Below, in pieces: positions 6,581 to 61,740 of a stretch of DNA of 64,000 bases; position 1 is the first letter of the stretch, and each line of letters starts with the position of its first letter. The translations under genes were made by a program, and so were the position numbers. The notes beneath the pieces are model-generated. The model saw nothing but the letters and a program-made list of their open reading frames with translations. It made no database searches and had not been told where the DNA came from. The DNA is taken from assembly GCA_964017185.1 (NCBI GenBank), contig OZ024874.1, positions 52,232,856-52,296,855 on the forward strand, in the 5' to 3' direction. The DNA comes from Rugalucina vietnamica (Eukaryota > Mollusca > Bivalvia > Lucinida > Lucinidae).

Positions 6581-6692
6581 AGCTTTTTGTTAAAGCTTAT
6601 ACCTGTTTAGTAATATATTTCTTAATTCTGTGTAAACTCTCTCGTGTCATGCACATGTATTGTCCTGTCTGCAATTTTCAGAACAGTCAAAG

Positions 6693-14423: not shown

Positions 14424-15936
14424 CAGAGGACCAATGGTCCTGTAAACGCGCATATACCAATAAACATGTTTGAATATTATGGTATTTAACTCCAGTGCAG
14501 GGGGAAGATGAAGCCCTAGGGCCATTTTCTTTTTTCAGAATCTTCAATATTCTGTCCATTTGGCAGTTTCCTGCTGGCTTTTCCCTTCAAATGACATTTT
14601 AACAGTTTTCCCAATTCAAATGCATAGGCAACCCATGTTGACCTTGCCATAACTTGGTCAAGGTCATCACATGGTCATGATTTATATACACATTAAAGTA
14701 CTTTAGCCATCGATGCTTCACGCCAAGTTTCCTTGAAATCAGTCTATTGGTTTCAGAGAAGAAGATTTTTGATGGGTTTTTACCATATATGGGCATGGCG
14801 GCCATCTTTGTCATGTGACCTAGATTATTTATATATACATTGATTCCCCCATTCTATAGATGCTTCACATAAAATTTGGCTTTGTTTGGCCAAGCGGTTT
14901 CAGAGGTGAAGATGTTTGAATATTATGGAAATATACATGTATATTGCCGCGGGGTGGGGGCACATGAGCCCCTGGGGTCCAATTTTTTTTCAGAATCATT
15001 AATATTCAGTCCTACTGCCAATTTCCTGCAAGACTTTCACTTTAAATTACATTTTAAAAGTTTTCCCCATTCAAATGCATTGGCGACCTATGTTGACCTT
15101 GCTGTAAAATAGGTCAAGGTCATCACAGGGTCATGATTTATATATACATTGTAGTGCTTGAGCCATCGATGCTTCATGCCAAGTTTCTTTGAAATCAAAC
15201 CACTGGTTCTGGAGAAGATAATTTTTGAAGGGTTTTTACCATATATGGGCATGGCGGCCATCTTGGTCATGTGACCTGGATTATTTATATACACATTGGT
15301 TCCCCCTTCCCATAGATGCTTCATGTAAAATTTGGCTTTGATTGGCCTAGCGGTTTCAGAGAAGAAGATGTTTGAATATTATGATAATATACATGTATAT
15401 TGCCCCAGGGTGGGGGCGGATGAGCCCCTGGTGCCCAATTTTTTTCAGAATCATTAATATTCAGTCCTACTGCTCATTTTCTGCAAGATTTTTCCTTTAA
15501 ATGACAATTTAACAATTTTTCCCATTCAAATGCAAAGGCGACCTATGTTGACCTTGCCGTAAAATAGGTCAAGGTCACCGCAAGGTCATGATTTATATAC
15601 ACATTGTAGTACTTGAGTCATCGATGCTTCATGCCAAGTTTGGTTGAAATCGGTCTAGTGGTTCCGGAGAAGAAGATTTTTGAAGGGTTTTTACCATATA
15701 TGGGCATGGCGGCCATCTTGGTCATGTGACCTGGATTATTTATATACACATTGGTTCCCCCTTCCCATAGATGCTTCATGTAAAATTTGGCTTTGATTGG
15801 CCAAGCTGTTTCAGAGAAGAAGATCTTTGAAAATGGTGGACGACGGACGACAGACGGACGACGGACGGATGGACGGACGACGGAGCATGGGTATACTATA
15901 AGCTCACCTTGTGAGCCTGACGGCTCAGGTGAGCTA
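14424..15936. repeat. ~455 bp monomer array, family C, copy 1 (about 3 monomers)
   Basis: Monomers share ATATATGGGCATGGCGGCCA, GGTCATGTGACCT, CATCGATGCTTCATGCCAAG and AGGTCAAGGTCA. The array starts at AGAGGACCAATGGTCCTGTA and ends with a GGACGACGGAC satellite, GCATGGGTATACTATAAGCT and CTCAGGTGAGCTAA. ORFs across it are spurious. Confidence 0.85.
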
Positions 15937-18004: not shown

Positions 18005-18255
18005 CTCCTGCTCAGGGACATACTATGGCAGCAGGGTTTAAAAAAAAAACCCTACCCTACCCAACTCTTGCTCTGCAGTCCAATGTTCTACCACCAAGCT
18101 ATCTCCCCAATACAAAGGATGACCCAAATACACATCTCTCTCAGAACTCAACCCATTTAGAAATGCATTGAAAATATCAAATCTCGCTATGTCTACAAAA
18201 GAGGCAAACAGTTTGTCTCTTAGGAAAATATCAGATATGATTGATTACGCAATGA

Positions 18256-18447
18256 GAAAAGTGGATTTTTGACTATGCGAAAACAAAGGCGCAGATCAGC
18301 TGTGCAGTAATCTTCGGATAGTACAATTCCTCCTCTACTTCTATCCAAAATTTCAAGCTTCTAGCCCACTTCTGTGAATGTGTAGGCCGGTTTGTGTCGG
18401 ACTTGGTCCGATACCCAGTAGATCGATTTTCTCGCAGCACGTTTCAA
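18256..18447. mobile_element. Family B MITE, hairpin half lost, flanked by 21 bp duplication
   Basis: The B body is present. Direct repeats ATATGATTGATTAC(G/A)CAATGA lie at 18235-18255 and 18448-18468 (20/21 match). Confidence 0.75.
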
Positions 18448-18734
18448 ATATGATTGATTACACAATGATTTCAGGCCAATTCCATGCCTAGGCTATGTTC
18501 CCTTCAAAGAAGTTTAAAATTATTGATTTGCCGTTTCTTAATTTTTGGCTTTCCTCCCAAATCTGAGATAAAGTTATGTTATACCATGCATAATTTCTAG
18601 CACTCAAACAAATACTGGGAAATATGACAGAATGGATCAAAGATATTTGATAAAAAAAATAAGCTTCCCAGCACAAGTATTTTCCTCTCCAACAAAAAAT
18701 CTTCTTGTGTAGTGCTGTCTCTTAGCCTGGTATT

Positions 18735-18907: not shown

Positions 18908-19360
18908 ATGCCAATTTGGGTTTTTAATGTACAATGGTTTTTAAATGAACATGTGATGGAAACTCTATTTTTTAAACCCACATTCATTGTGTTGTGTGGT
19001 TCTGGTAATAAGATTACCAGTATAGTAGCTCAACTACGCAAGATTACCAAAGGCCTCAAGGCTAACAATGAATAATGTAATAGCTGTATTTTGTCAGATT
19101 TGACGTTTTCCTATTAACCATCAGGATGACCTATGACACTAAACAACACTTAAGCCAGCTGAAGCAAAACATACAAAACAACATTTTCGCCCCTAGTGTT
19201 CACCCAGTTTAAACTCGGACCAATATCTGAGCTTCTTCTTTGTGTAAAAAATGTAATAGAAAAGCTATTTCCCCAATGCTCTTGCATGATGAAACCCAAG
19301 GACTGTTCAGACCGGGTGTCTACCCAGGCTAATCCGAGATTTTGCTGGCCTTACATCATT

Positions 19361-19596
19361 TGAGCCACCTCGTGGAAAAACCAATAATGTGGTTTTCGAA
19401 CAGGTCTGACACCAACCGGCCTGTACAGCTACAGAAGCAGGCTAGAAGCTTGAAATTTTGGAGTTAAGTAGAGGAGGAATTGTACTATCCGAGTAGCGAA
19501 AACAAAGGCGCTGATCAGCTTCGCGGTTACTGCGAAGCTGATCTGCGTCTTTGTTTTCGCCTATGCAGATTGTTGGTTTTCCCATGAGGCGGCTCA
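19361..19596. mobile_element. Family B hairpin MITE
   Basis: Ends TGAGCCACCTCGTGG and CATGAGGCGGCTCA; perfect hairpin GATCAGCTTCGCGGTTACTG region. Confidence 0.85.
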
Positions 19597-20376
19597 TTTC
19601 ATGCACTAGCTCACAGGAATAAAGTACTATTGGAAATCCATCAAAACTATGGCGTCAGATTCATCAACTATCAGACTGGGTGTCACAATGACTCACAAAA
19701 AGTGGGACAGTTAACTCAAATTTTATGCATATGTGACAAGTTTGCTTATTTCACAATAAGACCCTATGTTGTGGGTACTCATTAAAATCTCCATGCCAAT
19801 TTGCTTCTAGTAAGTACTCACAAATGTCAGTTTTTATGGAGAAATGACAAAAATAATCTTTCTACTTTCCATAATTCTTTGACAAGTATGATGTGTCATA
19901 ATGTTTTCTTATTTTCCCTCATATTTTCATGGATTGGCACTGGATATAAACTCCAATAAATCATGTAACAGGAAGAAGCAATTTGCCAAAAACATTAACT
20001 GTCTTTCCGAAGCAACATATGCAAATTTTTGACAGCCCAAACCCTTCAGAGCAGCTAGCCATAAAAGGAGTCTATGGGTGCAGTTTATTACTCAGTATTG
20101 CTCTGTCTACCTTGATTGAGGGGCATAGTCACATTATTCTTGGACAGATTAACGGTAAACAATTATTTCCCTTAAAATGACATCTCTTCATAAAGATGAG
20201 GGGTGGCGTGGGGGTGGAGGGGTAGCTATACATATATTTTCATGACCAAAACATCACAATAGAAATATGTCAATGTTTGGCTACCACTTCAATATTCAGT
20301 AATCAGACAAATTGCCAACTGAGCTACTATGCCCGGTAATTTGGTAAAAACATATTCCCTTTTCAGCTGTATGTTA

Positions 20377-22353: not shown

Positions 22354-24320
22354 AGAGGACCAATGGTCCTGTAAACGCTCACCTGAGATCAGCTGCATAT
22401 ACCAATAAACATGTTTGAATATTATGGTATTTAACTCCAGTGCAGGGGCAGATAAGCCCTTGGGCCATTTTCTTTTTTCAGAATCTTCAATATTCTGTCC
22501 ATTTGCCAATTTCCTGTTGGCTTTTTCCTTCAAATGACATTTTAACAGTTTTCCCAATTCAGATGCACAGGCAACCCATGTTGACCTTGCCATAAACTTG
22601 GTCAAGGTCATCACAGGGTCATGATTTATATATACATTGGAGTACTTTAGCCATCGATGCCTCATGCCAAGTTTCCTTGAAATCAGTCTATTGGTTTCAG
22701 AGAAGATGATTTTTGATGGGTTTTTACCATATATGGGCATGGCGGCCATCTTGGTCATGTGACCTAGATTATTTATATACACATTGATTCCCCCATTCTA
22801 TAGATGCTTCACTTTAAAATTTGGCTTTGTTTGGCCAAGCGGTTTCAGAGAAGACGTTTGAATATTATGGAAATATACATGTATATTGCCCCGGGGTGGG
22901 GGCACATGAGCCCCTGGGGTCCAATTTTTTTCAGAATCATTAATAATTAGTCCTACTGCCCATTTCCTGCAAGACTTTCACTTTAAATGACATTTTAAAA
23001 GTTTTCCCCATTCAAATGCATTGGTGACCTATGTTGACCTTCCCGTAAAATAGGTCAAGGTCATCACAGGGTCATGATTTATATACACATTGTAGTGCTT
23101 GAGCCATCGATGCTTCGTGCCAAGTTTCGTTGAAATCGGTCAACCGGTTCTGGAGAAGAAGATTTTTGAACGGTTTTTACCATATATGGGCATGGCGGCC
23201 ATCTTGGTCATGTGACCTGGATTTTTTATATACATATTTGTTACCCCTTCCTATTGATGCTTCACATAAAATTTCGCTTTGATTGGCCAAGCCGTTTCAG
23301 AGGAGAAGACGTTTGAATATTATGGAAATATACATGTATATTGCCCCGGGGTGGGGGCACATGAGCCCCTGGGGTCCAATTTTTTTCAGAATCATTAATA
23401 ATTAGTCCTACTGCCTATTTCCTGCAAGACTTTCACTTTAAATGACATTTTAAAAGTTTTCCCCATTCAAATGCATTGGTGACCTATGTTGACCTTCCCG
23501 TAAAATAGGTCAAGGTCATCACAGGGTCATGATTTATATATACATTGTAGTGCTTGAGCCATCGATGCTTCGTGCCAAGTTTCGTTTAAATCGGTCAACC
23601 GGTTCTGGAGAAGAAGATTTTTGAACGGTTTTTACCATATATGGGCATGGCGGCCATCTTGGTCATGTGACCTGGATTTTTTTATATACATATTTGTTAC
23701 CCCTTCCTATTGATGCTTCACATAAAATTTCGCTTTGATTGGCCAAGCGGTTTCAGAGGAGAAGATGTTTGAATATTATGGAGATATACATGTATATTGC
23801 CCCGGGGTGGGGGCGGATGAGCCCCTGGTGCCCATTTTTTTTTCAGAATCATTAATATTCAGTCCTACTGCTCATTTTCTGCAAGATTTTTCCTTTAAAT
23901 GACAATTTAACAATTTTTCCCATTCAAATGCATTCGCGACCTATGTTGACCTTGCCGTAAAATAGGTCAAGGTCATCATATGGTCATGATTTATATACAC
24001 ATTGTAGTGCTTGAGCCATTAATGCTTCATGCCAAGTTTGGTTGAAATCGGTCCAGTGGTTCCGGAGAAGAAGATTTTTGAAGGGTTTTTACCATATATG
24101 GGCATAGCGGCCATCTTGGTCATGTGACCTGGATTATTTATATACACATTGGTTCCCCCTTCCCATAGATGCTTCATGTAAAATTTCGCTTTGATTGGCC
24201 AAGCGGTTTCAGAGGAGAAGATCTTTGAAAATGGTGGACGACGGACGGACGACGGACGGACGACGGAGCATGGGTATACTATAAGCTCACCTTGTGAGCC
24301 TGACGGCTCAGGTGAGCTAA
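22354..24320. repeat. ~455 bp monomer array, family C, copy 2 (about 4 monomers)
   Basis: Same start and end as copy 1. The GGGCATGGCGGCCATCTTGG landmark recurs about every 453-455 bp. The left edge keeps GCTCACCTGAG, the inverse of the right edge CTCAGGTGAGC. Confidence 0.85.
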
Positions 24321-28502: not shown

Positions 28503-28832
28503 CAATTGCATCTGTCCATTTCTCTGTCTTACTGTTATCTCTATGTGTATTCCAAATTCAGTAGGTAAAATTGTCAATGAGCATTTGAACAAATATACAT
28601 AGCATTTGACAAATTCTGAAAAAAAAATGACCTCAAAATAATTATAACATGGACTCCATGCCCCTGGAGAGAGGACGTCCCTTTACAGTAGCTGTAACTA
28701 TCCTCATTTCCATAATCAATCACTCATCCATCTCTCAGCTCATGATGATTGATCGGCTCTAATAAGATCAACATTAACTGCTGGAAACCATCAGAAATAG
28801 ACCAGAAAATACTTTATAGAGGACTAAGAGGA

Positions 28833-29050
28833 AACCAGCATTTTGCATATGCGAAAACAAAGGCGCAGATCAGCTTCGCAGTAACTGCGAAGCTGATCAG
28901 CGCTTTTGTTTTCGCTACATGGATAGTAAAATTCCTCTTCTTTCTTAATCTAAAATTTCCAGCCTCTAGCCATCTTCTGTGCTTGTACAGCTCGGTTTGT
29001 GTCGGACCTGTTCATAAACCACATTGTTGGTTTTGTCATGATGCAGTTCA
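28833..29050. mobile_element. Family B hairpin MITE with 16 bp flanking duplication
   Basis: Perfect hairpin CTTCGCAGTAACTGCGAAG. Direct repeats TAGAGGA(C/T)TAAGAGGA lie at 28817-28832 and 29053-29068. Confidence 0.8.
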
Positions 29051-29204
29051 CTTAGAGGATTAAGAGGAATACCAGAACTGATCAAAGTACCTGAGCAAAC
29101 AAAAAAACTAAGTAGCTCGGCAAACAAAAATCTTTTGGAAAACCTGTCAGAATCCACCGCTTTAAATGAGCAATGCCATCAGAAAACTTGCATTTGGTTG
29201 CTTG

Positions 29205-29290: not shown

Positions 29291-30300
29291 ACTGCTGTGC
29301 TTTTGACAATATACTCCGAGTAAATAGCAATCTTCAGTAGCGATGTTTATCTGATTGCTTAAAGTACTTTATGTCCCAGTAAACAGCTGTGGTCCTGTCG
29401 TGACATCATCTCAAGATATAAAATTCTGAAATATTCTGAAAATCTGTGATTTATATTACTTAGCTAAAATCATATGTGCCATGGAAAGAAATGCCAAATT
29501 TGGTGACCAATCCGATTAGAAGTACTTAAAATTTAAAAATAACAGAAATTTTCTATTTTTAAGCATGGCTTAAACTTTGCTAAATAGCCCATTTTAAGAA
29601 TGCAAAAAACCTTCACACCACTTTAAATCTGGAGTTGACAAGTTAAGACGAACTGACATTTTAAGAAATTTGCAGGAATCATCAGAATTAAGCTACTACG
29701 CCATGTCACGAAACTAAAAAACTATCACGTCACATGATCTGTGTGTTCAGCAAAGCCTCGTAACCAAATCATCGACAATGAATCAGACTCAGATCTATAC
29801 ACATTTAAGCACCTTGGTAGTAAATAAGTATTTTGCGGACGGTGTGGTCAAGGCCAACACGACTTGATTGCCGGAGCTGATTGGGACTGTTTGTTTCTCA
29901 TGCAGTGGTTCAATTAAACCCTCCAAGAGCGGCCGATCAATAGCTACAAGGCAAATAAGCTTTCAAGAAGAACAAAGCACAACATGATCTCTACGCAGTG
30001 TTGAAAAAACCTTACTCCTGCATTATGCAATCAGAAAGTACGCAGAAAAGTCTACGCTCCATCTCAGACTTGTAAAGATCAGTCATTATTTTGTATATCA
30101 AGACATATATGCATATTTCTATTCGTATTATATCAAGCCCTCAAACTGGGTTCTACAAATGTGCAAACTTGGATCCATGCAGCCGAAACCAAATCAGCGA
30201 CCCAAAATGCGTGATTATTTTCTTGCGAAAAGGCTGATCTGTAGGCGACATGCAATGACTCATAGTCTCAGATATGGAATATGCTTAAAGGCTATTAAAT

Positions 30301-30518
30301 GATCCTGTGCGTGAGAAAAACAACAAATTTGGTTCCGACCAGGTCCGACACAAACCGGGCTGTACAGTCACAGAAGCAAGCATTTCAGATTTAAGAAGAA
30401 GAGGGATTGTACTATCCAAGTAGCCAAAACAAAGACGCTGATCAGCTTCGCAGTTACTGCGAAGCTGATCTGCGTCTTTGTTTTCGCCTAAGTAGATTGT
30501 TGGATTTCCCATGTTTTG
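30301..30518. mobile_element. Family B hairpin MITE with 12 bp flanking duplication
   Basis: Perfect hairpin CTTCGCAGTTACTGCGAAG. Perfect direct repeats AGGCTATTAAAT lie at 30289-30300 and 30519-30530. Confidence 0.8.
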
Positions 30519-30718
30519 AGGCTATTAAATTAAAGTTCAATAGAATCAGGCAGCAAAAAGCATGACAGCTCCTAGACATTTTAAGAAGGTTCCGGAGAGA
30601 GATCAATTGAGGAGACAGAAGAAATTGGAGAGATGGGACATTGCATAAAGTAAAACTTCAGATAAACGGATCATGCTCCATCACGCAGTTTGGGCATATC
30701 GTTTGTAGGGGAGCATGG

Positions 30719-31201: not shown

Positions 31202-31384
31202 TGGGCAATTACCAAGTTTACAGGAGATTTCCTCAATCAAATGAACTTGGCAATACATGTACATGTAAATTTTGATTGTGGCCACTCCCTAAATTTTCCA
31301 TACAGGTACATGTTATGATTCTTTTGAAAACAAAATATTGTTTTAAATGTCAATATTGCCTGGCATTTAACCCATTGCCAATCT

Positions 31385-31450
31385 ATGAGCCACAACCCGA
31401 GAAAACCGGTCTTCTGCTTTTCGACCAGCTCCGACACAAACCGGCATGTA
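31385..31450. mobile_element. Family B fragment
   Basis: TGAGCCACAACCCGAGAAAA then ACCAGCTCCGACACAAACCG; the rest is missing. A second fragment lies at 32969-33035 (CCGCCTCGTGAGAAAACCTG). Confidence 0.5.
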
Positions 31451-31631
31451 TAGTGGATTCGAATTGGGTGGGAAATCTGTCCTATCGGACCGATTGCATA
31501 GTGACAGTATAAAATCGATTTTGCCACCGCGCGATACGTTATATTTATCCAGTCATGTGTGTACTAAAATACATTGAAATATTGGTTTTTACATTTCTAT
31601 AAATAGACAGCAGGCTTGTCCGATTTTATTG

Positions 31632-34822: not shown

Positions 34823-35045
34823 GATTAAGTGATGGTCAATAACCATCGAAGTTTTAAGGATTAAGTGATGGTCAATAACCATCGAAGTTTTAAGGATTAA
34901 GTGATGGTCAATAACCATCGAAGTTTTAAGGATTAAGTGATGGTCAATAACCATCGAAGTGATGGTCAGTAACCATCGGATTAAGTGATGGTCAATGAAC
35001 ATCGAAGTTTGTTTTACCGTATCACGCACAGCGGCGTAAAAAACG
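34823..35045. repeat. 36 bp tandem repeat with internal palindrome
   Basis: GATTAAGTGATGGTCAATAA units at 34823, 34859, 34895 and 34931 plus degenerate ones. Each holds GATGGTCAATAACCATC. The terminal unit plus GTTTGTTTTACCGTATCACG recurs at 35605-35670. Confidence 0.85.
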
Positions 35046-35402: not shown

Positions 35403-35686
35403 TGTCAAACTGACAATTTTCTGCACAGACCACGTAACCAACTCTTTGACGCCACTTTAAACACCGGAATAAGTGACGTTACTAGGAAGGAACGATGTCG
35501 TCATGTGACTGAATTTTCATGATAATATCAAATTCGCACCAAAATATCTTTGGGGGTATTAAACCTTATTCAAAATTTGCATTTGGTGACGTATATCATC
35601 ACGGTCGGATTAAGTGATGGTTAATAACCATCGAAGTTTGTTTTACCGTATCACGCACAGCGGCGTAAAAAGGAAATGATCCTTCT

Positions 35687-35870
35687 CAGGAGAAAACCAA
35701 CAATGTTGTTTCCGATCAGGTGCGACACAAATCAGGCTGTAGTCACAGAAAAGAGCTAGAAGAGGGAAATTTCGGATTTAAGAAGAACAACTGTACTATC
35801 CGTCGAGCTAAAACAAAGTCGCTGATCAGTTCGCATATGCAGATTGCTTGTTTTCTCATGAGGCGGCTCA
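35687..35870. mobile_element. Family B MITE, hairpin deleted
   Basis: GGAGAAAACCAACAATG, TTCCGATCAGGTGCGACACA and end TTTTCTCATGAGGCGGCTCA. Confidence 0.7.
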
Positions 35871-36715: not shown

Positions 36716-36914
36716 AGCTATACAGTCACAGAAAAATACTAGATGCTTGAAATTTTGAATATATGTAGAAGAGAGATTGGACTATCTGTGTAGCGAAAAT
36801 AAAGGCGCTGATCAGCTTCACAGTTACTGTGAAGCTGATCACAGTTACTGTGAAGCTGATCTGCGCCTTTGTTTTCGCATAGGCAAAAATCTGGTTTTCT
36901 CACAGCGTGGCTCA
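36716..36914. mobile_element. Family B MITE with duplicated hairpin arm
   Basis: The hairpin GATCAGCTTCACAGTTACTG is perfect, and a further ACAGTTACTGTGAAGCTGAT unit is repeated directly after it at 36839-36861. Confidence 0.75.
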
Positions 36915-39757
36915 TATATATTGAAAATAGCAACCTTCTTCTGGTCTGGTTAGGTAGCTCTACAATACTAAATCATCCAGCCTAGTGGACAATAATCATA
37001 CTGTAATTCATAATTCTAGTAAAATTATGCCATTATTTTCATTTACCACTCATAATTCTTTGTTTTATTCAGGAGCAAATAGACAAAAGCTTGGCCAATT
37101 ATATCTGAAGGGTAACAAGCAATGACCATCAGGCAAAAATGTCAGAAAATTCCACAGAGATGATCAAAGATTCCACAGCAATTACTACAAAATTAGTCAG
37201 ATTAACTTTCTCTTTGTGAGGAACAGTAATAAAGTGTAGTTTACATTTTATGCTAGAAAAGTACCATTGTCTATTACTAGTTTCATTTGAGTGAGGGTAG
37301 TACCAATATTGTATTTGTATTTGCAACTGACAAGCGTAGCGCATAGGAAATTCACACAGTATATCATTTTAGTTAAATCTGAAAACTGTACAGTCAGAGT
37401 ACAATATGTCTCTGAAACATTTTGTCGAAGCGACGAAAGCAATTTAGAGAATGGATTGTATATAAGGCTATGCAAAATAAACAGAATTCTATCACCTTAC
37501 CTAACTTATTTTATGTCCTTAGGAAATCCTGTTAGAACAATGCATCAACCAAAAATGACAATGGCTCAAAAACATGTCTGCAAAACCAGACAAATTGCCA
37601 AATACCCACTGAACGACAAAGTCATTATTTTGGCATGTCCGGCAATGGCAGCGATCAGCCGCAGCATCTGATCAGTGTTACTGACCACAAAACAGAAGCT
37701 AATTGTTCCTTAGATACCTGTTGTATGCAAAACAAAGTTTCTGATCATTAAATGTGGCTGTCCTGGTCGGTTTAAGTCTTTGCTGGGCTCTAAATCCAAA
37801 CTTTGGAATTGTCAGACTGCGGCTAAAATTTATTGAATTCCGCAATCCCATTAAGCATCTTTTGTCCAGTTCTCAGACGATGTCAAGTTATCGTGACTTA
37901 ATGAAGAAATATTAGATAACAAATCTTATACAACATAACAGATGCATGTCATGGACAATGCAGAAAACGCAAGACTTGCGGTTATTAACGTGACAATTAC
38001 TCATGGCCTCTTCACTATGGAGGACTTTTAATGGGGAGACACTGTCAAGTCTCAATGGTTTGGTTCAATTGACGTTTTACGACCCCTCCACGTTTTATGT
38101 AATTTTTTAGTCATTGTGAGCTGCATGACTACTCTTCTTCCAGTGCAAAACTCCAAAAACCATTAACCTGCAAGCAGTACCAATTCTTTTGTCAAAAACT
38201 GAAAAATTCTGCTCTTGAATCAGGCGAGGAGAAAGAATGCAATACAGATACATGTATTATGCTTTCCTCAACAAAGTTCCTCAAATGATATACTACAAAT
38301 TGTGGGTGTTGGAAGTTGACAGGCTAATAACCAATCTACACACCAAAGCAACCAAAACAGCCAAGTTCACAATAGAGTTCCTATTTTCAAATTTAATAAA
38401 TTTTGAATTTAACCTTAATTAGAAATCCAGACAGTCTGACATTAAAAATTATCCAATTTCTACAGAATTAATCAAAGATCCAATCCACTGTATTTCAGAA
38501 GTTTGATGTTCCAGAAATTTCAGGGGTTGCTTGTCAGATCACAAAGAAACCACATCTTGAGAAACCCTGAATTCTAATTTCAAATCAAGTATTGAAACTC
38601 AGGATATAACAAGTAAATTGTGAAAAAATGTGACAAATAGAAAGCTAACATGACATATGTTGATCAAACTGCCAAGGGTCTACAATCTGATCTCGGCTTA
38701 TTTCAGAATTTTACATGACACCTTTTAAGTTTCTTTAGTTAAGGCAAAAATTAATTCTTTATTTTGAACACACATGGAAATTAGATCCTTCATGATTGAA
38801 AAGTGTGATGTAAGTTCCAACTATAAATTGGAGTGGTTCAGAATTTATGAAAATTCCTACATGCCAATGAAAGAATGTATAAACAAAATACCATTATATG
38901 AAGACAGATTCGGATTCTTCAAGATCAAAGGGTATTTTATGGCAATTTGATGCACAATATGCTCAGGTATGTGCATCTAACCTAGCTGCACTAATTAACT
39001 GTCAAAACTACATTCCATGTTTTACAGAATCAGCTCTACATTGAGATGGCTCTGACAAATAACTATGTGCTTAGAGGAAATCGCCTCCCTTTGAAATAAC
39101 CCCTAATTTGTGCAAAAAGGATCTGATCAAGCCAAAAAGAAGCAGGATTTTTGCAAACAATTTAGAACTTATGGCAGACAAAATATGTGCATTCCTGATA
39201 ATTGCCAGGTAAAAGTTTTGATGCTTTTCTTTAGATCAATTTTCCAAGTTATCAGTAACTGCAGGAGGCAGACAGGGAGAGGTATTATTACCTACTCTTA
39301 TCATGTTCTTATCAACATAAGTAGAGATAACTAATTCCATCAAGTATTTAGCATACCCCTTCTCTGTGGTCTGAGCTACATGTTATGACACTTGGAGGAA
39401 TTGAGAAGCTGTCACTTATTCACTTATTTGAAGATATAACCATCAAGAGGAAAAGTTATAAATCATATTTGCCAAAGACCTGTCATACTTTCATAACTTA
39501 CAATGTTGAACAACCGCCCAGAAAAACAAGTCAGAAAAACAAAAGAATATTGTTCTTAGAAGCAAGTTTTTGCTAAATAAATTTGCCAGCTAGTTAATTT
39601 TGTATGTATTCCTTGAATGTGTGATCTATTATTGTAGTTCATTCTGCTTTATCAATATTTGAACATTCACTAAATACAATAAGTATCAAAATTAGAGAAA
39701 GGCGTAAAGAAGCAAAATTTCAACAAAATAAACAATAAATGCACCAATATGACCTAC

Positions 39758-40722: not shown

Positions 40723-41767
40723 TTTTTCCAGTTAAACTTATGTCTTGCTTCAGTCTCGGTGTTCAAATCAATTCAGAACCTCTGCTGAGCTTTCATGCTA
40801 TTAGTTCCAAGATACATTAATGTGACAGCCTAATGTAAGGAATATGTTTTTCTCCCAAAATTTGCCAATAACAGTGTTATGTCTAAACTGTGTATTGATT
40901 TCCAAAGAAACCATCAATTTTAACAGTTTTCATCGAAATATATTGAAAACTGTCCTGTTAGAAATATCTCAAACTATTGTACATGTATATCAATTTCCAA
41001 GAACACATAAAAGAAGAACGGCAATTAACAGATCAATGTCCAATTAAAATTCCAAGAAACAATGAATTCATTTCCATTTACACTTAAAACATCCATTTTT
41101 TGGACAGAAGCCATTAAAATCTCTCTAAAACACTTTGTAATGTCATTGTATTTTCTCATAGACTTTCATTGACATTTATCCTTCAAGATTCCATTCTCAA
41201 ATGACCCAAATTGTAACTGAATCTATTATTCAATTTCAGTCTCTAATAATTCAATTATCAGTTTATTCACATCATGGTGCCTATCAGTATTATCAGGATC
41301 AGAACCAGTATCAGTTACAGTCTAATCTCTGGAGATTCCTAAACAAATATGATACAAACCAGCCTGCACAGCTTCAAAGACTAGCCAAATTATTCAGATA
41401 TCATCTAGACTGAAGCTATGCTATTCTTTATGAGCAACTAAGCTCTGATCAGCTGTTTGATAATCATTGAGCAGGCTGATTTGCACCTTGTCAATTTTTG
41501 AACCAGAAAAATAAGCTAAAGAAGGGCTCAATTTCAGTGAGTCACTAGTCTCAATATCACTGACTGTTCTGGAATTCTTTTTTACTGGAATTCTTTGTTT
41601 AAACAGGATCATTAAACTCTGAGGTCTATATTTTGAACAATCTGTCAATCAATGTATCTCTCACAACTGAAATTGGCACTGAAAGTATTTTTACTTCAAT
41701 ATTTCATTTGAACTAATCCTATATTTTCCCAGAGATTTTCAAAGATGGCAACATTAAAAGCAGTAAA

Positions 41768-41947: not shown

Positions 41948-43206
41948 CTTTCCAATGGGGACTGCAGTTTCAGTCTACATTACTAAATTTCAAGAAGAAT
42001 ACAAGGCTTTTAAGTATACATAATTATAGTTATTGCAAAATGCTTTTCAGACAGTTTACTTAGAAGATGGATGGCCCTGTCTGGCAAAGCTAAATATGGG
42101 ACCCCTGGGATTTGTATGTTTTAAGAATGTACATTGCTAATGGACAGTAGACATGAAAACAATAGCTTCTGACAGTGACTGTCAAAATTATCACAGCAGC
42201 CAAACATAAAATAGTTTGCAATTTTAGAAGCAATATTCTTGCATCTGCAAAATTGACAGGCATCCCGCCACTTAAAGCATATAAATTGCCTGATGTCTAA
42301 TGCAGTGGAATTCACACATAATACTTATGCTCTCTGATGTACTTGTTAACTTTTATAAGCATTGTTCCCCATTGCAAAATATGACAGATCTTATCAACTG
42401 TCAAAGACAGAAGCAAGAATCCGCAAAGACATTAAGAGAGGCAACCACTATCAAAATTTTGGATGTTGAGACACACATTTAAAACATTCAATGTTTAAAG
42501 CAATATATAAATTGGTTGAGACTGTATCTATAATCCATATATCTTTCAATACACATGTCTCATATTCAGGTACCATCATAGAAATTCCATTAAAAGGTCT
42601 TTCATGAATTCAAAAACCTCTAGAAGATTATATTCCAAAAACTGAAAAGGTCCTTGATCAATTAGTCACAATCATTTTTGGAGAATCCTGTCTTTTGTAT
42701 CAATCAAATGAATTTTTTTGATAATTCCATTTGTCAAAATATTTCAACACATTTGGGAAGCAGTCACCACTTTTGGACCATTCCCATTATTAATAATTGG
42801 GGTATGGCAACTTGGTGCAGCATCCCAGTGCAGAGCAATGTAAGGAATGACTCATCTGACAACAGGGAAGTCAGGATGTCTGAATGCCTGCTCATTGTGG
42901 ATCAATAACTCAGAGAAGCTGGAACTCGACAAATGAAATCCAATCGAAACATGCAAATCATGGATTGGCATGCATTTCAAGTGACTGTGACGTCACAGCA
43001 AACCTTTAAACCCAATACCAGAAAGGGATATGACAGCGGCCAAAATATTTTTTCTTGCACTTAAGCTAAAAGTTTTAACAGGTCATGACCACAATATTAA
43101 TCATACATTCTACAGAATCAAATACAATAGATGAGTAATGACCTAACAACTTCCAATTCACATCTTGTAAAACAATACAATATGCTCTGGCAAGAATTGA
43201 AAACTT

Positions 43207-43406
43207 TGAGCCACCGCATGAGAATTCCAACAATTTGGTTCCGACCAGGTCCGACACAAGCCGGGCTGTACAATCACAGGAGATGGTTTAAAGCTTTACG
43301 AAGAAGGGAAATTGTACTATCTGTGAAGCGAAAACAAAGAGGCACAGCTGATCTGCGCCTTTGTTTTCGCATATGCAGATTGTTGGATTTCTGATGTGGC
43401 GGCTCA
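43207..43406. mobile_element. Family B MITE with ~36 bp flanking duplication
   Basis: Ends TGAGCCACCGCATGAGAA and GATGTGGCGGCTCA. The 36 bp segments at 43168-43203 and 43419-43454 match at 33 positions (shared core AACAATACAATATGCTCTG). Confidence 0.8.
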
Positions 43407-43935
43407 TATAGCATTTTATAAAACAATACAATATGCTCTGACAGAAATTGAAAAAAAAAATATGATGAAGTTGAGTAAAGGTATAGACAGGGCTGGAGCT
43501 CAGACAAAACTCCAGATTTTATGGAGATATAAATCATACAAACAGACAGAAAAACCATAAAATACCTGGTGATTTTATTGATCCTCAGAAAACAGTGTAA
43601 GAAATCTTGGAATAATTCAAAACAGGCCATGGATTCTTTTGTGAAAAACTGCAAGTTCTTGCACTTTGCAAACAATAAATGCAATGCTGAATGCCTTAGA
43701 AAATGCACAAGAATATTTCCATTGAAATGATTAGGCTTTTTTGTTTTTTCGTCCATCATTTCTACTACTGTATTCAAACGATCAAACAATTACTAATTTC
43801 CATCTAGTATGAAGTGAAGTCTGTACAGAGAGGAAAAGAGACATTGCAATGCGACAAAGACCTGGTTGACAGGTAATAGATAAAAACACATGAATCAAAA
43901 TCAAACATTGTGATGAAAAAGTAAAAGGTTTACCT

Positions 43936-44117: not shown

Positions 44118-45213
44118 CAGACCCGTCAACTCTCCCGGGTATCCCGTTATTCTAACGGTTTTGCCATGGACTTACGACCTCCCGTCCGATTTCAATTTAA
44201 AACGCCAAACTAACGGATTTCGGGCTGTCTACCGGTTAATTTTAACATCCGAAACAAAAAAGAAAACATATCCCGGTTTTTCCGTGTTTACACAAACAAA
44301 GTCAAAGTCATTGCAAATTTCCGGTTGAATTCGGGAATTTTCGATCGTTCCGACTTCTATTTTTAGCCTATTCGGCAAGTCTCGGGTGTATTCGAGGTTC
44401 TCCGATCTATTTTAAGCATGAAATCGGTGAAAGATAAAACAATCTTTGTGATTGGCCATTAACTTTTTAGGCTGATTTCGGAACCAACCAGATTGCATGT
44501 AACAAATGATCATTGGGAAAACTACCAATATGGCCGCGCCCTTGGTAGAAATAATGCCGAAACTGATTTTTCGATCGAATTTCATCGTTTCTTTGCGGTT
44601 TTTGCATCATAGGCTTTATAGAAAATTGCACAAGCGAATTTTCAATACCTAAGGTATGACACCGTCTCAATTTTCGGCAAGTCTCGGGTGTATTCGAGGT
44701 TCTCCGATCTATTTTAAGCATGAAATCGGTGAAAGATAAAACAATCTTTGTGATTGGCCATTAACTTTTTAGGCTGATTTCGGAACCAACCAGATTGCAT
44801 GTAACAAATGATCATTGGGAAAACTACCAATATGGCCGCGCCCTTGGTAGAAATAATGCCGAAACTGATTTTTCGATCGAATTTCATCGTTTCTTTGCGG
44901 TTTTTGCATCATAGGCTTTATAGAAAATTGCACAAGCGAATTTTCAATACCTAAGGTATGACACCGTCTCAATTTTTCCTTGTTTTATGGGTTTAGTATC
45001 AGTAAATGCTAGCGGTATACTCCTTTTTTTTGCCAATAACAAGTATTGTCTTTTTGAAAAGCTGCAAAAAAATCTCCCTCTTGAAGAAAAAATCTCCCTC
45101 CTTGAAATTTTATAGGTCTTAAAGCGCGCGCGTAAGTTGCATGCTAATTTGAACGAAACATAGCTGTTTCGCGCAATCTCCCTCTTAGAATTTTCAGGAG
45201 GTTGACAAGTCTG
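44118..45213. mobile_element. 1.1 kb non-autonomous TIR element inserted in a minisatellite
   Basis: Left end CAGACCCGTCAACTCTCC; inverted right end CAGACTTGTCAACCTCC. The 5 bp repeat ATGGA flanks it (44113-44117, 45214-45218), and removing the element restores the 34 bp minisatellite unit. It holds a 302 bp direct duplication (44371-44672 and 44673-44974) with no difference that I can see. Superfamily not assigned. Confidence 0.8.
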
Positions 45214-45428: not shown

Positions 45429-48382
<2,954 letters not shown>

Positions 48383-48897
48383 CAGAATCAACTAATGTGA
48401 AGGAAAAAAACAATAGAAACAGTTTTAGACTGCAAATTATCCCAGTTAAAAAACTGTTCATAGCATGTTTCAGTCTGCATTCATCCCAAATGCATTTGTA
48501 AAGTTCTATGTTTCAACTACCATTTTGACTGCACCTCTTTTAAGTTTGCCACCTACGATCACCAATATCAGGTGGTCTATGTGTTTCAACAGAACACTTC
48601 AATTTTTTTGCACCAAACCCAATCAATCAGGTAACAAAAATGCATCAATGTTGCAAAATACAGAGAAAAGTTTACCTGTGTTTAGAAATTCCATAAATAA
48701 ATGAAGAAACAATAACAGTAGTGGCCTAGCAGTGAACCAATTACCCAGTAGATAAATAAATGATTTACAGGAACTGACAGACTCAGAGAATACAAATACC
48801 TGACTAACTTACAGGTAAGGAAGACAGTCATTTTTGCTTGGCTGTGTCAGTGAAATGTATGCATCAAAAGTGGTGGACTTGAGGCTGAAATTGCAGT

Positions 48898-49110
48898 CGA
48901 GCCGCCAACAATGTGGTTTCTGAACAGGTCCGACACAAACTGGTCTATACCTTCAAAGAATATGGCTAGAAGCTTGAAATTTGGGACTTAAGAATGTACT
49001 ATCCGTGTAGCAAAAACTAAGGCGCTGATCAGCTTCGCGGTTACTGTGAAGCTGATCTGCGTCTTTGTTTTTGCATATGCAGATTGTTGGTTTTCTCATG
49101 AGGTGGCTCA
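48898..49110. mobile_element. Family B hairpin MITE
   Basis: GAGCCGCCAACAATGTGG, GAACAGGTCCGACACAAACT, hairpin, end TTTTCTCATGAGGTGGCTCA. Confidence 0.8.
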
Positions 49111-49288
49111 TTTGTTTGCATTGTGATTCAATGGCCTACTTAACATTTTTGCAGTCATGTTACAATGCATGGTACCACCACTTTCAGGTGAGATAATTTG
49201 TCTTGCTCAATGAAACAACTGTCCGTCTCTTTAGTAAAACATCTCTCTTATGACGCAGTATATATCATCCAGTACAGGAGCTTATAAA

Positions 49289-50221: not shown

Positions 50222-50266
50222 AGAGAGCCCTCGCTCTTCCATACTATTCATTCAACAAAGACCTAC

Positions 50267-52751
50267 CTGTCTTCATCATTGACCCCGCTGCTCTTCTGCA
50301 TGCACTCCTTCACTGCCTGCATCCCCTCCCTAAACCTCTGCTGCAGTCGCCGGGCGTACAGCGATGCCCCACCCTCACTCATGTACCCAGAGTTCATATC
50401 CGCCTCCATCTGGTTTTTCTTGAGAATATCTCCATCTGACATGTAACCAGAGATATAATCATAATTCTCATAGTCCGAAGTTGTCTCGTCAAACGAAACA
50501 TTTCCCGAACCACTTGAGATTGCACGTTTTATTGGACTAGAATAGATTTTACCGATTTCCATCAGTGAACGGTTCATGCCAATACGATTTCCACCCACAC
50601 TGGTCATTGCGTAACATTGTCCTTGGGATACTGGTAATGGCATCTGTTTGTTAGGTGATGCGTAGCCTCTCATGTAGCCACCGTAATGTAAAGATCTATT
50701 CAGTGGCTGCATTGGTTGAATATCCAAAGTTTCACCGGAATCAGCCACAAATTTAGTGTTCTTATCAGTCTCTTTTGCACTTTTAGTCACATTGTCACTT
50801 TTTAACTTTTCCTTTTCATTTATTATGTCAGTATGCACCTCAGAATCAAATGTTGTCTCTTTCTTTTCCTTTTTCTCATGGGGCTGTACTATCGCCACAT
50901 TACTAGCCTGACGATTCATTTGCGTTCCCAGAACCTTAATTCCAAGTCTTGGCGAGTTCGCTGCACTAGAACTTAATATTACACTTTCAGTTGACGAAGT
51001 TGAACTACTAGCACTATGATTTGAGTCTGGAGTAGAATCATTCTTAACAGTTTCTTTAATATCAACTTGGAGTTCTTTTTGTGTTGGAGATGTTGGTTTA
51101 CCATTTTGAGTCACTTGAACGGTGTTTGTGTTACTTATATTTGTCCGTGTTGATGGGGGTGGTTCAGTCTTTGGAAGGGGTGGGGGTTGTGCTGATCTTG
51201 TATGAACCACTGATAACACAGCATCAGCACTTGTGTCAGTTTTCATTGATGGAGATGGCGTACTACACGTTGGTTTCACAACATTCACCGATTGAGAACT
51301 TATCAAATATCCATGAGAACTATCCTTATATGTTTTGTTCACACTAGTATTGCTTAAACTTTGTGAGGTGGCAACAGCCTGATTTGTCGGCTTAGCAAAA
51401 TGTCCCTCACCGATTCTTTCAATCTTACCATCATTGTATTCAATTTCAGTATACCGTGTCTTTGGCGTTCCAGGGAGATCCACAGGTATCCTTGGTGACT
51501 GTGTCGTCTGCTTTGATGGCTGACCTTGACCTTGAACCTGGTTGCTATGATTACTCTGGTTACGAGGCATGCTGTTCCCAGTATCTTTGTCAGATGAGGT
51601 ACTCCCATTTCTATGAGGAGGTACTGGGGGTGCTGGTGCACTCTGGGAAGACTGAGATACAGGTGCAGTATGGGATTGAGGAGAAACCATCTGTGATGCC
51701 GAACTTATTCCAGACCGACCAGATTTCTTTGGCAAAGTTGATGTCTGAATCTGGGAGCCTGGATGAGATTGAGTGTGTCCTTGTGTCTGAGACGGTGCAA
51801 CAGCATGGGTGGGCTGCAGACCCTCTCTTGTGCCCAATCCCCTCATTTTCTCCTCCTTAGATTTTGATGATTTCCCTGAAGAAGGTTTAGGAATCCCCTT
51901 TGAGCTACTGGAGGTTGGAATAGAACTACTGAGAGCTGATGTTTGTGTGGTAGAGATTCCTTGATTTGATGCTAATGATGTTGTTGAAGATGATTTTTGG
52001 CTTTTTACTCCCGATTTTGGGATCAAACTCCCGACTTTTGTCCCCCTGGTGAAAGTCTGAGATCCCGACTGAGGTAACTTGGATTGTTCAAGTCCCAATT
52101 TTCCCTGTGCATCCCCTTTGTGCTTCAAATTTGATTTCCGAGAACTTGATGTTGGCAGGGATGATACAGGGGTTGCAGGGAGGGAGCTGCTATATACGGG
52201 GTGGGACGGGGAGGGGGAAGATTGGCGAGAATGTTGTTGACCTATGGTTAAGCCTCCAATATTTTCCCGCTTTGCTGGTGTATTGACCCCACCCACCATG
52301 GGGCGGGGCTTGGCTGACACAGGACTGTCCAAGTCATTTGTGCTTGTTGCACTACTGCTAGCACCAGCATCAAAAGAACTTGTTGAATATGAAGAATCAC
52401 TCCTCGAACTTGTACTTAATGTACTTGTACTTGCACTTCCTGTACTTCCACCCTTTGCACTAGTTTTTATCACTCCACCACTTTTAGTCCGCGCTTTTTC
52501 TTTAGAATTAAAAAGTTTAAACTTATCTAGCATAGAATTCTGCTTATTGTCTAGTAGTTTTGATCTCTGATTCGGAACTTTATTCTGTGAAGTAGGTTGT
52601 GGTGTGGAAGACTGAGGGATTTTATGCTGCAGTTGTTTGTCCGGAGTTGCTGATTGGCTGCGTGGTGCTAGGCTCCGCCCACTTGGCGTAGGAATACCAG
52701 AAGTAGCTGGCGATGAGGCTCTCTGAGCATTGTGTGCCTCTGTGTCTGCCC
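50267..52751 (-). CDS. NAV: NAV large central exon (2485 bp)
   Basis: The acceptor is AAATTTTTCAG right of 52751 and the donor ACAG|GTAGGT is at 50266-50261. It encodes about 828 residues, Ser/Thr/Pro-rich and largely disordered. NAV signatures are LDKFKLFN near 52530 and, close to the 3' end, GYMSDGDILKK then NSGYMSEGGASLYARR, which match the conserved vertebrate NAV segment of the form GYMSDGDILGK...NSGYMTDGG. Three SxIP motifs of the EB1-binding type are visible: SGIP at 52690-52701, SLIP near 52020 and SSIP at 51916-51927. Each is followed by basic or Ser residues, fitting a microtubule plus-end tracking role. A proline-rich PPPLPKTEPPPS stretch is a possible SH3 ligand. The apparent ATG at 52533 is internal: the frame stays open to the acceptor. 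The exon leaves in phase 2 (AG), completed by T of the next exon to Ser, giving DEDS-FDDSSS. Confidence 0.95.
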
Positions 52752-53152
52752 CTGAAAAATTTAAGCATACAGAATGAAAAATAATTTTCCATGAACTTTG
52801 GTGTGAAAAATGTCATCTAGATTTCTGTTTGCTAACCTCTGATGCATAGGCTAGCTAGCTACCTAGCTATATCAAATACAAGTACAGGATAAACTATAGG
52901 CATTGTAATATTTAGATTCCTTCCAAGGGCTGATCCAGGGTTTCAGAAGAGGGGGTTCAAATGAAGAAAAGGGGGTTCATTTGCCTAATTTCACACAAAA
53001 TCTCTTGAAATACCCCATGAACATTAAATAATTTGGGTCCGGAGTGGGGTTCGAACCCCTTGAACCCCTCTCTAAATCTGCCACTGCCTTCAACTGTACT
53101 TATGTGTGTATGGGCATTGTGCACCATAGCTGATTTGTGTCATTATGTTTCA

Positions 53153-55189: not shown

Positions 55190-55472
55190 TGAGCCACCTC
55201 ATAGGAAAACCAACAATTTGCATATGCGAAAACAAAGGCGCAGATCAGCTTCGCGGTAACCGCGAAGCTGATCAGCGCCTTTGTTTTCGCTTCAGCTTCG
55301 AGGTAACCGCGAAGCTGATCAGCGCCTTTGTTTTCGCTACACGGATAGTACAATCCCTCTTCTTCCTAAATACGAAATTTCATGCTTCTAGCTGTCTTCT
55401 GTTACTGTGCAGTCCGGTTTGTATGACACCTGGTCGGAAACCACATTGTTGGTTTTCCCATGAGATGGCTCA
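55190..55472. mobile_element. Family B MITE with tandemly duplicated hairpin half
   Basis: Hairpin CTTCGCGGTAACCGCGAAG, followed by a second copy of GAAGCTGATCAGCGCCTTTG; both terminal inverted repeats are present. Confidence 0.85.
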
Positions 55473-55905: not shown

Positions 55906-56330
55906 CCGAGGACCAATGGTCCTGTAAACGCTCACCTGAGACCTGAGATATATACATGTACCAATAAACTTGTTAGACTAGAATGGTACAATGCATGTAT
56001 ATAACCCCAGGTCATCCTACGGTCATGATTTATATTAATTATGATGGGCTCGCGTCCCCAATGCTACATACCAAGTTTCGTGGAAATCAGCCCGCTGGTT
56101 CTGGAGAAGAAGATTTTTAAAGGTTTTTGCTATTTATAGCCATGGCGGCCATCTTGGTCATGCGACTTGGACCACTTATATAAACTTTCGTTCCCCCTTC
56201 CTAAGGATGCTCCACATGAAGTTTGGCTTTGATTGGCCAAGCGGTTTCAGAGGAGAAGATCTTTGAAATTGTGGATGACGCATGGGTATACTATGAGCTT
56301 ACCTGTGAGCCTTCGGCTCAGGTGAGCTAA
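55906..56330. repeat. Family C, short single-monomer copy
   Basis: Start GAGGACCAATGGTCCTGTAA, one shortened monomer with GCCATGGCGGCCATCTTGGT, no satellite, end CTTCGGCTCAGGTGAGCTAA. Confidence 0.8.
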
Positions 56331-57238: not shown

Positions 57239-57474
57239 ATGAGCATATGCATGAGAAAACAAACAATCTGGGTTCCAACCAGGTCAGACACAAACTGGCC
57301 TGTACAGTCACAAAAGCAGGCTAGAAGCTTGAAATTTTGGATTTAGAAAGTAGAGGAATTATACTATCCCTTTAGTGAAAACAAAGGCACTGATCAGCTT
57401 CGCAGTTACTGCGAAGCTGATCTGCACCTTTGTTTTCACCTATGCAGATTGTTGGTTTTCCCATGCGGCGGCTC
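57239..57474. mobile_element. Family B hairpin MITE abutting a NAV acceptor
   Basis: Ends TGAGCATATGCATGAGAAAA and CCATGCGGCGGCTC. Its left edge is 12 bp from the exon edge at 57226. Confidence 0.8.
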
Positions 57475-57800
57475 GTAAGTTGTTTGGTAAAATTTTGTAT
57501 GATAAAATCAACAAATTGTTGTTGTTGTTTTCTAATTCATTTATATTTTCGTTTCTGACAAAGACTCAAATTAAGCAGGGCATTGCACAGTGTGATTAGT
57601 CTACACTGTGTGTATCCAGAATTCATTTTAATAGCTACAGCCATCAGCTACCCATTTAGTGCAAAGTGAAGGCTCCGATCATCTCCTGCTTGGTTTGTTT
57701 AATTTCTTCACATCTCGGTCCACAACTTAACAGTCACATCCAGACAGAGCCAACGCTTCTTGGGAAGAGTAATCAGAGACCACTTTCCCAGAATGATCGT

Positions 57801-58321: not shown

Positions 58322-59037
58322 AACAACAAAGCACCACTGTATGGCTGCACATTGACACTTACAACAAAGCGCAACTCGAAATCTTTTAAATACATTGATT
58401 TATATAATAAACCAGCACGCTCGTCGGCATACATTGATTTATATAATAAACCTGCACGCTCATCTGAAACTGTATTAAAAAGCAGCATTACAATAATCGA
58501 CAACCTTATTTAGAGAACTTTATAAAATCCTATAATTAATATCTTTCGATTCTGATTTCAATCTCTGTATTTTTAGACACAATTGAACCTGATCAGCTGT
58601 GCGATTGAAATCAATACGACAATAATTCAGGTGCACAATAATTGCGCAGTAAATCTATGAAATATTTGGACAGTCGAAAAGGGTGAAATTGTCTGTTTTA
58701 TTACGAAAACTTGCCCATGCAACATGCACAGATTTTCATATGTTGAAAAATTTTCGGTTAAAAATAATTGATATTTTTAATATTTTTGTTCAAAATATTG
58801 GTTTTGAATACACATTAGAACCCCCACTATTCCCCAGGGCTTTGGGAGGGTGGGGGGAACTAGGACATTATGACGAGATTCTCAGTAGACTCTATCCAAG
58901 GGAGCTGCTCATTATTCCCTTGTTGAAATCAATAAGAGACATAATATAAACATTGAAAATATCTTGCCAGCTGATCAGGGGATCAATTTTCATCATATTT
59001 CTGATCAATATTTTTAATTCAATTCCAAATGATTAAA

Positions 59038-59242
59038 CCAACAACATGCATAGGCAAAAATAAAGGCACAGTAACTGCACAGCTGATCAGCACCATTGTT
59101 TTTTGCTATACAGATAGTGCTATTCCTCTTCTAATTATGTCCAACAATTAAAGCTTCTATCCTGCTTCTGTGACTGTACAGGCCGATTTGTGTCGGACCT
59201 GACTGGAAAACCATATTGTTGTTTTTTCCATGACGCAGCTCA
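59038..59242. mobile_element. Family B MITE with 27 bp perfect flanking duplication
   Basis: The B body is present with a shortened hairpin. The 27 bp starting TTTTTAATTCAATTCCAAAT is identical at 59011-59037 and 59243-59269. Confidence 0.8.
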
Positions 59243-60029
59243 TTTTTAATTCAATTCCAAATGATTAAATCTGTCACTGGCTTTTCTGAGGCCCAGACTC
59301 ATTTTAACAGCTTGCAGGCTAAAGAATGAGCCATGTCATGTCTTCTGCCTTGCACAACAGAAGCAATACTATGTTATTTAGCATGCTATTGATACGCAAA
59401 ATTTTGTTGTCAGTTGCATAAAATTTAAAGCTGAAAAATACAAGACAGAGAGTTCATGTGGGTAGATGCATCCCCACCAAGCTTACAGCTTGCCTTCATA
59501 TCCAGGTACATGTAGTTTAAAAGTGATTATAAATGAAACATGCCAATAAACTGAAGAGACTGTCATCAGTATAGTGAAGCCAGGATCCGTACAAAAGATA
59601 ATCATAAAAGAAATTTTAACAAAAACTCACCATGTGACAAAAACACAAAAAGTTCCAAAGGTTTTGAGGACAAAAGAAACAATCATGGTGTCATGACACT
59701 ATGACAATAATACCAGAGTTGATCAGAGTTATGCCTACCTCCTTTTGTAATGAGAATCACTTCACAACAACACATAACAATCTGCTCAGAAAAATAATTC
59801 CAAAAATAGTCAAAATCAGAAATTTCCAAATATTGTCAGAAAATCTCATTTACTTCCCCACAATGATAGCTTCTCAATATCAGTAATCAATTTAAAGAGA
59901 GGCGGTGAAAAAAATCAATGGTTGTCACATCTGAGCCTGAAAGCCTTTCAGATCTTTCTCTCCATTATTACTTTGCATTCTGGGTAATTTTGCATGATTT
60001 TTGTCCTTCATGAATATCATCAGAATGTC

Positions 60030-61501: not shown

Positions 61502-61740
61502 TTGAGCCGCCTCGTGGGAAAACAAACAATGTGGTTTCCGACCAGGTCCGACACAAACCGGCCTGTAAAGCTACAGAAGTAGGCTAGAAGCTTGATATTT
61601 CGGATTTAAGAAGAAGAGGAAGTGTACTATCCAAGTAGCAAAAACAAAGGCGCTGATCAGCTTCGCGGTTACCGCGAAGCTGATCTGCGCCTTTGTTTTC
61701 ACCTATGCAGATTGTTGGTTTTGCCATGAGGCGGCTTATT
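61502..61740. mobile_element. Family B hairpin MITE
   Basis: Ends TGAGCCGCCTCGTGGGAAAA and CCATGAGGCGGCTTA; perfect hairpin CTTCGCGGTTACCGCGAAG. Confidence 0.85.

Follow-up and report, generated by a model that had tools for sequence, protein, structure and literature searches.

Target duplications serve to classify transposons and to infer their mode of insertion, and the question raised by this locus is whether long direct repeats of variable length beside some copies of a hairpin element, termed here Family B, reveal how the family inserts. The original prediction for the 64-kb stretch of DNA analysed (the window, on which all counts rest) was that five copies are flanked by direct repeats of 12, 16, 21, 27 and 36 bp, and that such lengths point to nick-and-repair, target-primed or foldback-type insertion, possibly a distinct mobility mechanism, in place of cut-and-paste transposition with a fixed short duplication. 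The observation was confirmed; the interpretation was partly supported.

Family B copies were gathered with an nhmmer profile built from six copies, giving a working set of 15 copies of at least 198 bp with the right end kept, while three pieces were set aside: 36716-36916 (a left part), 31383-31454 (the right-terminal 72 bp) and 41337-41489 (an internal piece). The element is 236 bp long, with terminal inverted repeats (TIRs) of about 28 bp, an inner hairpin in its left half and the ends TGAGCCGCC..GGCGGCTCA; read in the direction of the copy at 59038-59242, its consensus starts TGAGCCGCCTCATG and finishes GGCGGCTCA. The exact length of 236 bp was found in 5 of the 10 copies with both ends. 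The TIR arms of these ten were identical at 18-26 of 28 positions, and an arm matched its partner in the same copy better than it matched arms of other copies (22.5 against 20.8 of 28; p 0.0012). When folded, the complete copy at 19353-19597 surpassed all 200 of its shuffles, both as DNA (z -7.8) and as RNA (z -10.0). Damage to the inner hairpin is common (copies beginning at 16270, 18256, 35677, 43207, 59038 and 55190), with one arm missing in five copies, and the 55190 copy has an internal 47-bp tandem duplication. A comparison of 18 reading frames of the window with Pfam returned no transposase and no reverse transcriptase, its six matches all lying below the Pfam cutoffs. No exact Family A or Family B pattern (Family A being a second hairpin family, described below) was found in viral contigs or GTDB genome contigs, as expected for a eukaryotic repeat. 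Rfam gave no match at the gathering score, and the 31 matches with E up to 1 included no hammerhead; a hammerhead retrozyme was rejected on these results.

The two-ended copies without a long repeat are the following:

61503-61738, minus strand: complete copy, 236 bp, 2-bp duplication AA
19361-19596, minus strand: complete copy, 236 bp, 2-bp duplication AA
49289-49525, plus strand: complete copy, 237 bp, 2-bp duplication AA
16270-16491, plus strand: two-ended copy, 222 bp, 2-bp duplication TT
55190-55472, plus strand: two-ended copy with the internal 47-bp tandem duplication, 2-bp duplication TT
35677-35870, minus strand: two-ended copy, 194 bp, 2-bp duplication TT
57240-57475, minus strand: complete copy, 236 bp, 2-bp duplication TA
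12143-12378, minus strand: complete copy, 236 bp, 2-bp duplication TA
9218-9453, plus strand: 236-bp copy with a divergent left tip, flanks TT/AC unmatched, no long repeat

Identical 2-bp flanks were found in 8/10 copies with both TIR ends (AA three times, TT three times, TA twice; p 0.002 on permuting the right flanks of the ten), and symmetrical shifts of both edges by 1-3 bases left only 0, 0, 1, 2, 1 and 0 of 10 flank matches. An offset scan covering duplication lengths of 2-9 showed 2 bp to be the fixed length that suits the Family B ends best, this match being tied by another 8/10 position that lies inside the TIRs and is element sequence. The base following the 2-bp repeat was T in 9 of the 10 copies. 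The two exceptions to the 2-bp rule are 43207-43406, which bears a 43-bp repeat, and 9218-9453, with its odd left tip. As eight of ten two-ended copies have identical 2-bp flanks, the usual Family B duplication is short, fixed and 2 bp long. The original interpretation stood for the five long lengths, which are variable and do not look like the product of one fixed staggered cut; it was incomplete in that most two-ended copies do have a fixed short duplication. With TIRs and a fixed short duplication in evidence, the favoured assignment of Family B, judged from its sequence, is to the putative non-autonomous TIR DNA elements (MITEs). The right flank reads WWTGA in four ordinary copies (16270, 19361, 49289 and 55190), the target there repeating the element's own first bases TGA, and AATAA stands on both sides of the 61503 copy.

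The five copies with long repeats are arranged as follows:

59011-59037, plus strand: left 27-bp direct repeat, 27/27 identical to 59243-59269
59038-59242, plus strand: Family B copy c59029 (nhmmer match 59029-59247), left TIR short by about 18-20 bp, one arm of the inner hairpin lost, an exact ..CTCA at the right end
59243-59269, plus strand: right 27-bp direct repeat, beginning directly after the element's right end, 0 mismatches
28817-28832, plus strand: left 16-bp direct repeat, 1 mismatch to 29053-29068
28833-29052, plus strand: Family B copy c28820, about 13-15 bp of the left tip missing, 2 nt between right terminus and right repeat
29053-29068, plus strand: right 16-bp direct repeat, pairing with 28817-28832
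18235-18255, plus strand: left 21-bp direct repeat, 1 mismatch to 18448-18468
18256-18447, plus strand: Family B copy c18252, about 11-12 bp of the left tip and one inner hairpin arm missing, 1 nt before the right repeat
18448-18468, plus strand: right 21-bp direct repeat, pairing with 18235-18255
43161-43203, minus strand: 43-bp direct repeat on the element's right side, 5 mismatches to 43412-43454, 3 nt from the right terminus
43207-43406, minus strand: Family B copy c43407, a TIR present at either end, unmatched 2-bp flanks (TA/AA), separated from its repeats by 5 extra nt (left) and 3 nt (right)
43412-43454, minus strand: 43-bp direct repeat on the element's left side, pairing with 43161-43203
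30289-30300, minus strand: 12-bp direct repeat on the element's right side, 0 mismatches to 30519-30530, overlapping the element's last base
30301-30518, minus strand: Family B copy c30514, about 10-11 bp of the left tip missing or altered
30519-30530, minus strand: 12-bp direct repeat on the element's left side, pairing with 30289-30300

All five predicted pairs were found in place when the window sequence was re-read; they adjoin the element, and four of them are far above chance. The 43168/43419 pair, of 36 bp with 3 mismatches, can be lengthened to 43 bp (43161-43203 / 43412-43454) at the cost of 2 further mismatches, 5 in all. In an anchored test of the 15 working copies, with the right repeat required to start no more than 3 nt from the right end of the element, the five long-repeat copies scored 66, 54, 38, 36 and 26 and the ten others 6-20; the maximum among 210 cross-copy null pairs was 28, one pair reaching 26 and none 36. 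Among the copies without a long repeat, the score of 20 at 16270 was matched by 8/210 null pairs and that of 18 at 12379 by 17/210. The fragments 36716-36916, 31383-31454 and 41337-41489 were left out of this test, and their flanks are without a long repeat. A local test of 16 copies gave 25, 34, 40, 56 and 61 for the five and 12-19 for the eleven others, against a maximum of 26 in 240 cross-copy null pairs (one reaching 25); of 4000 random window places, which may include Family A and Family B copies, 60 reached 25, 22 reached 34 and 6 reached 56. A scan of the window for direct repeats (spacing 80-1500 bp, exact seed 11, ungapped, listed arrays masked), below whose limits the 12-bp and 16-bp pairs lie, listed 21 pairs, and the only three with a spacing of 200-260 bp were those at 18231, 43161 and 59010. 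On the anchored and local tests, chance similarity as the source of the long repeats was rejected firmly for four pairs and less so for 30289/30519, the weakest (anchored score 26; 1/210 null pairs as good), where the left repeat overlaps the expected place of the left tip and the match may be partly element sequence.

The long-repeat copies differ from the others at one end. The right end lies at, or at most 3 nt from, its normal terminus in 5/5, and the left TIR is short by about 10-20 bp in 4/5 (c28820, c30514, c59029 and c18252, with c30514 possibly only altered). Among the ten copies that have no long repeat, a clear loss of the left tip is seen in none, 9218 being doubtful. For copy ends judged by eye from flanks and alignment, the association of left-tip loss with a long repeat (4/5 vs 0/10) gave a Fisher p of 0.004, calculated by hand, which becomes 0.017 if 9218 is counted as tip-less and 0.036 if the fragment 31383-31454 is added too. 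As four of the five long-repeat copies are tip-less and the fifth breaks the 2-bp rule, long repeats accompany abnormal left ends in Family B; found in 5/15 tested copies, four of them left-truncated, and in none of the other ten, they are a minority state and not the usual signature. The original use of long variable repeats as a mark of the family is narrowed to that minority, and taking them as the Family B signature would assign the wrong mechanism.

At the four tip-less left junctions, microhomology of 3, 4, 3 and 2 nt was found (combined p 0.0045), figures that depend on junctions set by hand. Right junctions fell in the target class AA/TT/TA followed by T in 3/5 long-repeat copies (p 0.009), as did 8/9 ordinary-copy junctions (p 1e-7), the background being 0.10 in both cases. 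Mismatches between the paired repeats were fewer than the terminal branch predicted in 3/5 copies (P 1.7e-5, 0.008 and 0.046; the other two 0.13 and 0.19), a soft argument from age, as terminal branches drawn from only 15 copies overestimate the age of insertion. The 27-bp repeat is perfect although its copy (59038-59242) is 19% diverged from the consensus.

Taken together, the shared right-end position, the trimmed left end, the microhomology and the variable length of the duplicated stretch suggest that flanking sequence was copied by synthesis and the ends were joined by microhomology. Our preferred reading, with a probability of roughly 0.53, is that Family B is a MITE with a usual 2-bp duplication and that its long repeats are by-products of microhomology-mediated repair at the left end. 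Normal insertion would duplicate AA, TT or TA, usually followed by T. In the long-repeat copies, the right end would be joined at its normal terminus or up to 3 nt from it, while the left end would either be left unjoined (one-ended insertion) or be cut at a later time, the element not being fully excised. The left flank would then be extended at its free 3' end by copying 12-43 nt from the other side of the target site, with the target strand itself or an uninterrupted homologue serving as template, and the trimmed left TIR would be re-joined by pairing over a few nucleotides; the length of the repeat would be that of the copying step and not of an enzyme stagger. A transposase as the initiator, the copying step with its polymerase, and the timing of these events, at insertion or after it, are what we infer. 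A later cut with repair from the homologue would account for the perfect 27-bp repeat in a 19%-diverged copy, as would a diverged source copy, and repeat mismatches below the terminal-branch prediction in 3/5 are as repair after insertion would give. The nick-and-repair idea in the original prediction agrees with these repeats.

Several observations count against repair. The lesion is on the same side in 5/5 copies, where a symmetric transposon should vary (two-sided chance 1 in 16), and the right repeat starts 1-3 nt off the right terminus in 3/5 (c18252, c28820 and c43407). One strict microhomology is only 2 nt long, the 30289 repeat has the one null pair in 210 as good as itself, and the 18 window frames held no transposase by Pfam, nor was an autonomous partner found in the window. 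The repair reading is further weakened by two damaged pieces, since damage alone brought no repeat to either:

48905-49111, minus strand: Family B copy whose right TIR carries an internal deletion, long repeat absent
31383-31454, minus strand: 72-bp right-terminal Family B fragment, left part missing, no long repeat

Family A, of which the window holds six full copies and three fragments, bears on the same point through one copy:

6655-7007, plus strand: Family A copy flanked by a 38-bp direct repeat (6655-6692 / 6970-7007, 4 mismatches); the element, 6693-6972, is complete at both ends, and its final three bases, ATG, also belong to the repeat

The five other full Family A copies have no long repeat (scores 13-19), and an offset scan of five copies found no fixed duplication, reaching 4/5 only inside the TIRs and at most 2/5 outside them. 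As the long-repeat copy of Family A has both ends, tip loss is not obligatory for long repeats, and the repair reading is weakened for Family A.

The main rival is target-primed insertion of the LINE type, in which RNA of the element would be copied into the target by a LINE enzyme, the 2-bp copies belonging to a second, DNA-mediated route. It shares the geometry of the repair reading, predicting a 3' (right) end that stays constant, a 5' (left) side truncated to varying extents with microhomology, and long duplications of variable length, and it explains the one-sidedness better: the same polarity in 5/5 long-repeat copies is natural for target-primed reverse transcription. Left truncation in 4/5 of these copies, left-junction microhomology, the 5 extra nt left of c43407 and the existence of a 72-bp right-terminal fragment (31383-31454, itself without a repeat) also agree with it. 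However, none of the five long-repeat right ends carries a poly-A or repeat tail, the right end coincides with, or falls close to, the DNA terminus that the 2-bp copies use and is mostly in the same target class, left loss is limited to about 10-20 bp in 4/4 tip-less long-repeat copies, and no Pol III box rises above shuffles. For A-box and B-box patterns, the best B-box match was equalled by 239 and 240 of 1000 shuffles on the two strands and the best A-box match by 952 and 982; ARAGORN found no tRNA in the window. A Pol III SINE was rejected, with boxes no better than shuffles and no 3' tail at the five long-repeat right ends, and on the whole a LINE route appears unlikely, if worth keeping in view.

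Variable lengths could also come from the enzyme itself, in a distinct form of mobility with nicks set from 2 to about 43 bp apart, the 2-bp copies being merely the commonest class; this is the bolder side of the original prediction. Long repeats in both families, their range of 12 to 43 bp and the presence of both ends in the Family A case and in c43407 are consistent with this, whereas lengths in the copies tested are either 2 bp or 12-43 bp, no clear case falling in the gap, and a wide stagger alone does not predict a damaged left tip with long repeats in Family B; we regard it as distinctly improbable. Slightly less improbable, and still a long way from likely, is one insertion machinery serving hairpin families A and B, with only the right end joined enzymatically and the left always finished by host copying and microhomology, so that the 2-bp cases (often at WWTGA targets matching the TGA tip of the element) and those of 12-43 bp would mark opposite extremes of a single target-primed, DNA-templated process. 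The element might, lastly, be filler DNA in the repair of a staggered double-strand break, or have landed where the two units of an older tandem duplication meet. A passage of PMC2869330 describes transposed Arabidopsis genes with long repeats around the moved DNA, and its authors there favour insertion of a recombination circle; but the right repeat begins at the TIR terminus or no more than 3 nt from it in 5/5, which neither random filler nor a duplication already in place would produce, and this origin is highly improbable. The counter-explanation put forward with the original prediction, a single short duplication with the five repeats as older tandem duplications, thus held in one half: the short duplication was found, while nothing shows that the repeats pre-existed, and their placement beside the element ends argues that they did not. 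If genome-wide data uphold the pattern, Family B would be a natural record of failed or half-finished transposition and of host repair.

Elsewhere, the window has a G+C content of 30-42% in 4-kb steps and a frame at 50263-52812, without a Pfam match, that we take to be neuron navigator exons. A 67-bp direct repeat (34976-35042 / 35605-35671, 629 bp apart) resembles a neighbouring 36-bp tandem unit, and its right copy (35605-35671) ends 5 bp from a Family B copy. A 302-bp unit forms two identical tandem copies at 44371-44976, and a GATA tetranucleotide array of about 740 units occupies 45429-48386. A 455-bp repeat occurs as arrays or a single copy at 14514-15861, 22458-24259 and 56009-56271, with short GGAC repeats following the first two; these arrays with their GGAC units recall the Helentron-type elements of bivalves and molluscs, to which they may be akin. 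With the navigator-like frame, they make a mollusc or a relative the probable host.

Among known systems, TIR transposons and MITEs with 2-bp duplications resemble Family B in their short element, TIRs, fixed 2-bp duplication and AT-rich target. Family B differs from such 2-bp MITEs (Tc1/mariner, ISL2EU) in that its duplication is AA, TT or TA and no transposase is linked to it. A literature search returning mainly listings and the opening lines of abstracts yielded no MITE family that mixes 2-bp and long duplications. The Tc1/mariner duplication is TA. It is named as general in a passage of PMC8277862, and Tc1/mariner was rejected with 6/8 matched Family B duplications being AA or TT. ISL2EU, whose duplication is given as AT in a passage of PMC4482050, was likewise set aside, AT being found in 0/8 matched copies. 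Foldback and Mutator-type elements share with Family B inverted repeats able to fold back; excerpts concerning Tm1 (PMC3169594) and FB4 (PMC8277862) give duplications of mostly 9-10 bp, and this class was rejected on the best fixed length of 2 bp among the 2-9 scanned.

For full-length L1, a part of PMC2912911 reports a duplication peak at 14-16 bp, with microhomology in nearly 80% of truncated L1 and extra 5' nucleotides in some cases. Target-primed L1 and Alu insertions are like the long-repeat copies of Family B in their variable duplications and a truncated 5' side with microhomology, whereas Family B has no tail or Pol III signal and most of its two-ended copies have a 2-bp duplication. 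The normal duplication of HERV-K is short and fixed, and Mamedov et al. are said to have described, in 2004, unusually long target duplications at some HERV-K LTRs. Some copies with long duplications in an element of normally short duplication are thus common to both, but HERV-K, unlike Family B, is a retrovirus. In alternative transposition of maize Ac, as set out in a portion of PMC4270019, intermediates are rescued by re-replication and end joining, some of it with microhomology, and variable duplications result. The Ac reactions involve two elements and kilobase segments, whereas Family B shows 12-43 bp at one end; they nevertheless resemble the repair proposed here for Family B, in that copying and end joining together leave duplications of variable length.
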